64,000 nt of DNA, taken from NCBI GenBank assembly GCA_018711625.1, contig DVID01000042.1, positions 1 through 64,000 on the forward strand, in the 5' to 3' direction. Positions 22,920 to 50,238 of this stretch are shown piece by piece. The notes beneath the pieces were generated by a model. It ran no database searches and had not been told where the DNA came from. It saw only the letters and a list, made by a program, of their open reading frames with translations. The stretch's first letter is position 1. Each line of letters opens with the position of its first letter. The translations under genes were made by a program, and so were the position numbers. Origin of the DNA: Candidatus Limicola stercorigallinarum (GTDB taxonomy: Bacteria > Actinomycetota > Coriobacteriia > Coriobacteriales > Coriobacteriaceae).

Positions 22920-23546
22920 ATGAACATCGTGTTGTTGGGAGCTCCTGGTGCTGGCAAGGGCACCATGGCTCAGCGCCTTGTGGCCGATTACGGTGTGGCG
23001 CACATCTCGACGGGCGATCTTTTGCGTGCCGCTGTTAAGGCGGGTAGCGATTTGGGTCGTGCGGCTAAGAAGTACATGGATGCCGGCGAGCTTGTTCCCG
23101 ATCAGCTTGTGATCGATTTGGTGAAGGAGCGTCTCGGCGAGGATGATGCCCAGCAGGGCTTCCTGCTCGATGGCTTCCCGCGCAACACGGTTCAGGCGGT
23201 CACGCTTGACTCGGAGCTTTCGTCGCTTGGTCGCGCCATTGATTGCGCGTTGCTTATCGACGTGAAGCCCGAGGTGATTGTTGAGCGTCTGTCGTCTCGT
23301 CGTACCTGCCGCGCTTGCGGTTACACCGGTACGGCTACTGACACCACCTGCCCCGCCTGCGGTGGCGAGATGTACCAGCGTGACGACGACAAGCCCGAGA
23401 CCATCAAGAACCGTCTCGATGTGTACGAGAAGTCCACGAGCCCGCTTGTGGAGTACTATCGCGGCCAGGGTCTCTTGAAGGCTGTCGACGGCGCTCATGC
23501 CATCGACGATGTGTATGCAGCGGTGAAAGAAGCGCTCGCTCTATGA
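22920..23546 (+). CDS. adk: Adenylate kinase
   Basis: This 208-residue enzyme balances ATP, ADP and AMP. The P-loop GAPGAGKGT is near the N-terminus, LLDGFPRN is conserved, and the LID has two CxxC-type pairs (CRAC, CPAC) consistent with bound zinc. It lies between secY and map and overlaps map by four bases. Confidence 0.97.
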   Translation: MNIVLLGAPGAGKGTMAQRLVADYGVAHISTGDLLRAAVKAGSDLGRAAKKYMDAGELVPDQLVIDLVKERLGEDDAQQGFLLDGFPRNTVQAVTLDSELSSLGRAIDCALLIDVKPEVIVERLSSRRTCRACGYTGTATDTTCPACGGEMYQRDDDKPETIKNRLDVYEKSTSPLVEYYRGQGLLKAVDGAHAIDDVYAAVKEALAL

Positions 23547-24331
23547 TCAAAATCAAGTCTCCATTAGAGATCGAGGCTATGAAGAAGGCCGGGGCACTGT
23601 CTAAGATGGTGCTCCGGCATGTTGGTGCCATGGTGCACCCTGGTGTCTCGACCTTTGAGCTCGACCAGCTGGCCGAGCAAATCATTCGTATGCATGGTGG
23701 CATCCCGGCCTTCAAAGGCTACGGTGGATTTCCCGGCTCCATTTGCGCCTCGCTGAACGACGCCGTGGTGCATGGTATCCCCAACCCCGATATCATCCTC
23801 CGCGATGGTGACATCATCTCCATCGACACCGGAGCGATTGTTGACGGTTGGGTGGGCGATAACGCCTGGACGTTCTATGTGGGCACGGTTGCCCCCGAGG
23901 TTCAGGCACTCTGCGAGGTTACCCGCGATTGCTTGAAGGCGGGTATCGAGCAGGCTGTCCCCGGCAACCACATTGGCGACATCGGTCACGCTGTTCAGAG
24001 CCTCGCCGAGGCTCACGGCTATGGCGTGCTGCGCGAGTATGTGGGCCATGGTGTGGGCCGTAACATGCATGAGGACCCCAACGTGCCTAACTTTGGCAAG
24101 AAGGGGAGAGGCGTGCGCCTGCAGGAGGGCATGGTTATCGCCATCGAGCCCATGATCACCTTGGGTACGCACCATGTGAGCACGGGCGCCGACGGATGGA
24201 TCGTCACCACCGACGACCACCTGCCCGCCGCTCACTACGAGAACACCATCGCCATCACAGCCGATGGCCCCGTGATTCTCACCTCCGACGCCCAGGGCCC
24301 CTGGTGCAGTATGCAGGGCGGCGAAATGTAG
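23543..24331 (+). CDS. map: Methionine aminopeptidase, type I
   Basis: This 262-residue metalloenzyme removes the initiator Met. The metal ligands fall in SIDTGAIVDGWVGDNAW (two Asp), YVGHGVGRNMHEDP (His), and two Glu in AIEPMITLG and the C-terminal ENTIAI. The ATG overlaps the adk stop as ATGA. Length is that of short type I enzymes. Confidence 0.96.
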   Translation: MIKIKSPLEIEAMKKAGALSKMVLRHVGAMVHPGVSTFELDQLAEQIIRMHGGIPAFKGYGGFPGSICASLNDAVVHGIPNPDIILRDGDIISIDTGAIVDGWVGDNAWTFYVGTVAPEVQALCEVTRDCLKAGIEQAVPGNHIGDIGHAVQSLAEAHGYGVLREYVGHGVGRNMHEDPNVPNFGKKGRGVRLQEGMVIAIEPMITLGTHHVSTGADGWIVTTDDHLPAAHYENTIAITADGPVILTSDAQGPWCSMQGGEM

Positions 24332-24346
24332 CCAACTTACCCCATT

Positions 24347-24419
24347 GAGGTCGACCTGTTTCATCCCGTGCTCAAACAGCGCTGCGCGAACTGCGCGCGG
24401 GACGAAACAGGTCGACCTC
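24347..24419. repeat. Hairpin element 1 with conserved loop
   Basis: Arms 24347-24368 and 24398-24419 are 22-bp inverted repeats with one mismatch. The 29-nt loop (24369-24397), read on the reverse strand, matches the loop of the element at 24511-24562 with one substitution and one inserted base, while the outer arms of the two share nothing beyond the inner CCCG/CGGG pair. It lies 15 bases after the map stop. No T-run follows. Confidence 0.65.
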
Positions 24420-24499
24420 GAGCGTTCGGCTACGTTCTTGCAGGATTCAATGGTCTCATTGTGCATCCATCATGTATCCGGCATGTTTTGCGCGCTTTT

Positions 24500-24575
24500 G
24501 CGGGCGGACTATACCCTCCCGCGCGCAGTTCGCGTCAGCGCTGTCTGAGCACGGGAGGGTATGTCCCGCCGACGC
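24500..24575. repeat. Hairpin element 2 with the same loop, opposite orientation
   Basis: A perfect 11-bp core stem (24511-24521 with 24552-24562) extends imperfectly to about 24500 and 24575. The 30-nt loop (24522-24551) is nearly identical to the reverse complement of the loop at 24369-24397. It lies upstream of infA. The rest of 24332-24689 holds only the infA leader. Confidence 0.65.
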
Positions 24576-24689: not shown

Positions 24690-24908
24690 GTGAAGAAGGA
24701 AGACGCAATCGAACTCGAGGGTACGGTTACCGAGCCCCTGCCCAACGCCATGTTTCGCGTTGAGCTGGAGAACGGTCATAAGGTGCTTTGCTCCATCTCG
24801 GGCAAGATCCGTATGAACTACATCCGTATTCTTCCCGGTGACAAGGTTGTCGTGGAGCTCTCTCCCTACGATCTTACCCGCGGTCGCATCACCTATCGCT
24901 ACAAGTAA
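24690..24908 (+). CDS. infA: Translation initiation factor IF-1
   Basis: This 72-residue OB-fold protein binds the 30S A site during initiation. The sequence after the start, [19 protein letters not shown], and the end [15 protein letters not shown] are diagnostic. GTG 24690 is chosen because it gives the family's usual N-terminus and has GAGAGAAAGA upstream; another GTG two codons earlier and an ATG at 24642 are less likely. Confidence 0.95.
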
Positions 24909-50167: not shown

Positions 50168-50216
50168 GCCTTGGTCGGAAACCAAGGCGCCTTTTGTCCT
50201 GGTCGGCAACCAGGAC
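50168..50216 (+). promoter_or_regulatory. Two-hairpin r-protein leader of rpmE
   Basis: Two perfect 8-bp stems with 5-nt loops stand in tandem: 50168-50175 with 50181-50188 (loop CGGAA), and 50196-50203 with 50209-50216 (loop CGGCA). Both share the GGTCGG-A-ACC apex. They end 22 bases before the rpmE start. L31 leader motifs, one of them for Coriobacteria, have been described from comparative RNA searches; this fits that class by position and shape, but I could not align it. Confidence 0.65.
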
Positions 50217-50238
50217 ACGAGTACAAGGAGTCCCTGCT

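Follow-up and report, generated by a model that had tools for sequence, protein, structure and literature searches.

The window, which is the whole 64,000-nucleotide stretch of DNA analyzed here, contains two hairpins between the genes map and infA (Table 1). Its host genome lies within the Collinsella/Enorma group. The preliminary description placed the pair at the borders of the map-infA spacer, but both hairpins are located inside it (24332 to about 24690), with approximately 15 nt separating the map stop codon from the first of them, hairpin A.

Table 1. Coordinates of the hairpins, their cores and the neighboring genes in the window
Feature	Positions	Strand	Description
map (methionine aminopeptidase)	23543..24331	+	Upstream neighbor; named from its sequence and its position in a ribosomal-protein gene cluster
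Hairpin A	24346..24420	+	Variable outer arms 24347-24374/24392-24419 enclosing the core; model R1 24354-24412 (+), 75.7 bits
Core A, conserved	24369..24397	+	GCTCAAACA, inner stem and AACTGCGC, forming an asymmetric internal loop, plus closing bases; conservation from alignment A1
Inter-hairpin spacer of the '+-' doublet	24421..24497	.	From sequence
Hairpin B, inverted second hairpin	24498..24575	-	Arms 24503-24528/24545-24570; model R1 24507-24566 (-), 70.0 bits
Core B, conserved	24522..24551	-	Differs from core A by a single substitution and one inserted base
infA (translation initiation factor IF-1)	24690..24908	+	Downstream neighbor; GTG at 24690 is the assumed start; infA protein search

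Paired hairpins in the map-infA spacer

The apex of hairpin A reads TGCTCAAACAGCGCTGCGCGAACTGCGCG on the + strand and that of hairpin B reads TGCTCAGACAGCGCTGACGCGAACTGCGCG on the - strand. Recomputation upholds the earlier observation that these 29- and 30-nt segments are nearly identical on opposite strands, as a single substitution and one inserted A are the only differences and both segments are closed by CCCG/CGGG. The arms are likewise as first described, matched within each hairpin (89% complementary in A and 81% in B) with no arm sequence common to the two. The segments were originally called loops, and although the shared apex stands, it is not simply unpaired and holds a conserved internal loop together with a short inner stem. 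Hairpin A is predicted to fold on the + strand with -54.3 kcal/mol (z -8.8), and hairpin B gives z-scores of -4.0 on the + strand and -5.4 on the - strand; in both cases no shuffled sequence was as stable.

Scanning the window for nearly perfect arms with a minimum of 16, a threshold that hairpin B does not reach, recovered hairpin A and, besides it, a single unrelated hairpin at 2299-2352. The latter has the arms ATGCACTACGTTTCGGTCAG...CTTGACCGAAACGTCGTGCAT and shows no sign of the core of the family described below. Elsewhere in the window, positions 50196-50230 match the Rfam model of the L31-Coriobacteria ribosomal protein leader with 34.1 bits, barely above its gathering score.

All three genomes of the host genus have the doublet in the map-infA spacer, as do genomes from two further genera, and the arms differ. 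The start-to-start distance of approximately 150 bp recurs at the same site in both congeneric genomes. No core precedes infA in, for example, G025, G033, G047, G061, G004, G006, G051, G021, G062 and G065. The map-infA spacer is short in most core-less genomes, one of which (G063) carries a plain short hairpin, and the doublet-free spacers come from more distant species. In the map-infA spacer of G066 (locus L201), a different palindrome doublet (TGTCCCAAAATGCACCTGTCCC...) is found between the two hairpins, and this spacer is therefore shared by several repeat families.

Core anatomy, arm covariation and distribution of the family

Together, hairpins A and B make up one doublet of a previously uncatalogued hairpin family. 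None of 4227 Rfam models matched the family, and no description of the element was found in the literature searched, which lay mostly outside subscription papers and bioRxiv preprints. The constant apex with changing, self-complementary arms had been noted as a signature to be pursued by searching the genome and its relatives for further copies. Scoring with a covariance model yields 11 copies in the host genome, and many more are found elsewhere. In the host copies printed, the outer arms differ from copy to copy and each set is self-complementary.

The conserved part of the family is an asymmetric internal loop, 5'-GCTCARACA/AACTGCGC-3', flanked on one side by variable outer arms and on the other by an inner stem that likewise varies (CGCTTCGCG, CGGCTTCGCCG, CACGCTTCGCGTG and others that are much longer). 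A T.G pair adjoining the core recurs in most copies, and in Collinsella-type copies the model's tenth outer pair is recurrently an A.C mismatch. In longer variants there is a further conserved block, GTCCTG..CTCGCACG / CGGCTCGTGCGGAAC, and the innermost stem varies. The closing TGC/GCG is exchanged for other paired combinations in some copies from Omnitrophota and Atopobiaceae. The hairpin base is variable across copies.

Arm covariation, which the preliminary description proposed as a check, is strong. Among 84 hairpins from many genomes, the mean arm score is 22.8 with the hairpin's own partner and 7.5 with arms swapped between copies, a contrast that measures specificity and not frequency because the set had been preselected for pairing. 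An alignment of 42 sequences has 93% of its cells paired, compared with 69% in shuffles, and 235 double-changed cells, compared with 60. Covarying base pairs, a criterion used for structured RNAs, are therefore present in the family, but they do not single out RNA because template switching yields the same signal.

With the covariance model, copies are detected in 160 of 348 Coriobacteriia genomes and 47 of 135 genera, with at most 15 candidates scored per genome. Fuller scoring of seven genomes gave 49, 26, 25, 12, 11, 6 and 4 copies, with 49 being the most in any one Coriobacteriia genome; the unclassified 'bacterium Co_bin.265' has 12 copies by fuller scoring and an Omnitrophota genome has 3. 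The counts of 49 and 25 come from two genomes of the Atopobiaceae genus g35. Among Omnitrophota, a distant phylum, 14 of 193 genomes carry the family, in some cases with arms of approximately 45 bp. The model found the family in none of about 270 genomes of other Actinomycetota, and all 14 matching genomes in a draw of 296 Actinomycetota genomes are Coriobacteriia, which indicates a specific model and a disjunct distribution. The non-coriobacterial copies have a flank G+C content of 38-54%, which is evidence against coriobacterial contamination. The family is a widespread and uncatalogued repeat of common gut bacteria (Collinsella, Enorma and Atopobiaceae). A phage origin was considered and rejected: scorable matches in viral contigs had unpaired or poorly paired arms and were read as chance matches, as were most hits of one sequence search outside Coriobacteriia, Omnitrophota and Co_bin.265. 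One Omnitrophota locus (L085, around 219-245) has a half-copy of the core joined to CCTGAGCAAAGTCGAAGGA, a sequence similar to a widespread palindromic repeat.

Orientation, arm alleles and nesting

Close pairs of opposite orientation are arranged '+ then -' in 31 of 31 cases and never '- then +'; one further pair is '++'. Inverted doublets in extragenic DNA, a feature used to recognize REPINs, are therefore found in this family. Relative to genes, and read in the orientation of the core, 77 of 141 hairpins begin no more than 60 nt downstream of a stop compared with 14 on the opposite side, where genes are the ORF calls of this analysis and orthologous sites were entered more than once. This sense bias near stops arises largely because a doublet places its nearer hairpin in the sense orientation behind whichever gene is adjacent. 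Single hairpins between co-directional genes are divided into 19 sense and 18 antisense, as expected if singles are decayed doublets, and almost no hairpins occur in divergent (promoter) contexts. The neighboring genes, as judged by sequence, include map/infA, def, dut, thiC, leuA, leuC, anaerobic ribonucleotide reductase and thymidylate synthase. Three hairpins checked in Co_bin.265 lie 16-30 nt after stops.

The def-fmt site was compared among 22 related Collinsella genomes with readable sequence behind def, whose def proteins are 97-100% identical. At least five unrelated arm alleles occupy this site within an almost constant outermost GTCCC...GGGAC. The alleles are mutually unalignable and each is self-complementary. 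The core is inverted in the allele of G029, and G042, G010 and G019 have chimeras that combine the 5' arm of one allele with the 3' arm of another. The immediate flanks, approximately 25 nt on each side, are variable as well, and the core is absent from the site in the more distant species G030, G047, G062, G057 and G021. The presence of so many arm alleles between similar flanks makes DNA-level copying of arms directly testable.

In Atopobiaceae, 17 of 62 hairpins interrupt an older core, with one half of it on either side. Nesting is seen in 0 of 121 hairpins outside this family of bacteria, and a swapped control also gave 0. A repeated unit of G234 has an empty loop at L303 (CCTCG-TTCC-TGCGG), and a complete hairpin fills this loop at L291, L297, L308 and L309; three nesting levels are present at L295. 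The inserted units carry their own arms, and only in Atopobiaceae are arms partly shared between copies. A larger repeated unit, whose ends resemble GTCAAATC...GATTTGACGC and which has the core at its center, is seen at L303, L291, L297, L308 and L309, and again at the RGIG5869 loci L049, L054, L061, L090, L095 and L130. In those Atopobiaceae, it may be this larger unit that moves. Among the loci compared in Collinsella genomes, no arms are common to different sites, as they would be for a single hopping hairpin. Mobility is well supported in Atopobiaceae, and elsewhere we infer it. Of the initial suggestion of a mobile hairpin that takes its arms from its surroundings, the mobility gains support from nesting, '+-' doublets and allele replacement; uptake of arms from the surroundings was not observed, and nested units bring their own arms.

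Interpretation and competing explanations

The reading we favor, with confidence and doubt about evenly balanced, is a family of REPIN-like dispersed DNA palindromes that are mostly settled and whose arms are kept complementary by template switching. The hairpins would probably be mobile palindromes of old origin, in which the arms repeatedly serve as templates for one another. Observed directly are the family with its conserved core and covarying arms, the '+-' order, the def-fmt alleles with one inverted core and the nesting in Atopobiaceae. The conserved asymmetric internal loop would serve as the presumed recognition site of a putative structure-specific enzyme whose substrate would be folded single-stranded DNA or a cruciform, and the stems on both sides of the core would need only to be self-complementary. 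Template switching is known to homogenize the arms of inverted repeats and to invert their spacers (PMC8794818, PMC8604942). During replication it would copy one arm onto the other, such that drifting arms stay complementary, and it could also invert the spacer. New hairpins would arrive by insertion, with hairpin loops as one target, and most copies in the host genome would be old and settled, kept or tolerated directly after stop codons. The published template-switch hairpins resemble the present ones in having arms kept complementary and spacers inverted by this process; they reflect a mutational process that can act on any inverted repeat, whereas here one conserved core recurs throughout a family (PMC8794818, PMC8604942). 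The family offers a natural test bed for the idea that arm copying at the DNA level can produce strong stem covariation, which is usually taken as proof of RNA structure.

Several results weigh against REPIN-like palindromes. No mobilizing enzyme was found, nor any RAYT gene in the hairpin loci. No near-identical copies were seen at different sites outside Atopobiaceae, and no clean empty site was found between close relatives. Most hairpins lie within approximately 60 nt of a stop codon, and this placement could reflect a 3'-UTR function.

A more far-reaching version, advanced tentatively, is that these DNA hairpins, common to Coriobacteriia and Omnitrophota, form a new class that is mobile or can be exchanged. 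Such elements would be recognized by an enzyme via the bulged core, would insert into the terminal loops of hairpins including their own copies and thereby build nested 'matryoshka' palindromes, and could be exchanged whole at fixed positions downstream of housekeeping genes. If these elements do insert into hairpin loops, a ssDNA-processing enzyme with an unusual target remains to be found.

The leading alternative to the favored reading, which we consider distinctly less likely, is a structured RNA at mRNA 3' ends. The hairpin would be transcribed with the upstream gene, and a protein or RNase acting on the internal loop would terminate, process or protect the transcript. The concentration of hairpins shortly after stops, including the three in Co_bin.265, their near absence from divergent contexts, the sharing of sites by related species and the covarying arms all agree with this explanation. 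However, selection of the arms as RNA predicts more G.U than A.C on the functional strand, and arm mismatches comprise 26 G.U and 37 A.C (p=0.21). An apparent preference for G.U in the inner stems (19 versus 0) came from a model-fitted alignment and is unreliable for that reason; an unbiased recount gave 9 versus 5 and the claim was dropped. Tolerance of G.U above A.C, as used to recognize structured RNAs, is thus seen neither in the arms nor in the inner stems. Folding of whole elements as RNA does not reliably favor either strand. The orientation of the hairpins also stands against an RNA role, as co-directional spacers contain one doublet hairpin in antisense and singles are nearly equally divided, and so do the inverted core in one def allele and the nested copies. 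Of the selection on a fold that was originally proposed, the arm covariation is borne out but an RNA-like preference for G.U in arm mismatches is not. Homogenization of arms at the DNA level explains the covariation at least as well as fold selection does. The absence of a G.U excess fits arm copying by template switching, and the core could still have an RNA role.

The hairpins resemble intrinsic terminators in being G+C-rich and located soon after stop codons. They differ in their strongly conserved internal loop, arms of roughly 20-45 bp and inverted doublet arrangement, and no T-rich segment (U-tract) is present directly 3' of the stems. Intrinsic termination was rejected on account of the missing U-tract, and the map-infA spacer has no terminator-like site.

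Mobilization as classical REPs or REPINs by the RAYT (Y1 tyrosine) transposase that these genomes encode appears improbable. Y1_Tnp (PF01797) genes, mostly of RAYT size, are present in 55 of 67 genomes with the family, and REPIN doublets are mostly inverted pairs (PMC3116915), similar to the dispersed extragenic palindromes described here, which lie behind genes and often form inverted doublets tens to hundreds of bp apart. A RAYT gene, of the kind that the preliminary description proposed to look for, does exist in the host genome, but it is not linked to these hairpins. The core is absent from the flanks of all 20 RAYT loci examined, of which those printed carry other palindromes, and no RAYT gene was found at the hairpin loci; a cognate RAYT gene flanked by the repeat, as expected for REPINs, was therefore not observed. 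The RAYT-free genomes G025 and G056 each have 8 copies of the family. By definition, a REP has an unpaired GTAG or CGTC tetranucleotide at one end (PMC3733652), whereas at 132 hairpin ends GTAG occurs 3-5 times and CGTC 0-1 times, about the level of control windows. REP stems are conserved between copies of one genome, but in the host and other Coriobacteriaceae the arms are unrelated between copies. The present hairpins are also much longer, are conserved in a bulged core at mid-hairpin instead of in the stem, have a low copy number in most genomes and nest in each other. As a separate observation, RAYT genes of Coriobacteriaceae (L217, L218, L221, L224, L225 and L233-L236) have flanking palindromes of their own, of the types GGGGACGTGTTCC, GGGACGGGG, AAAACCCCTGGGGT and TTTAGGGTCTGACCCTAAA, and several of these likewise combine a constant apex with differing arms.

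A local inverted duplication within the map-infA spacer, with arms matched by chance or by conservation, would account for near-identical, inverted apices approximately 150 bp apart, but this refuting case of the preliminary description has virtually no standing given the 11 host copies and hundreds elsewhere with unrelated, self-complementary arms.

Integron attC sites are imperfect palindromes that are recognized via their structure; they have R boxes conserved at the base of the hairpin and depend on a tyrosine integrase. The present hairpins share with them the imperfect palindrome, the unpaired bases and the variable terminal structure. No cassette array was seen here, and in contrast to attC sites the hairpin base is not conserved and the constant block is placed between two variable stems.
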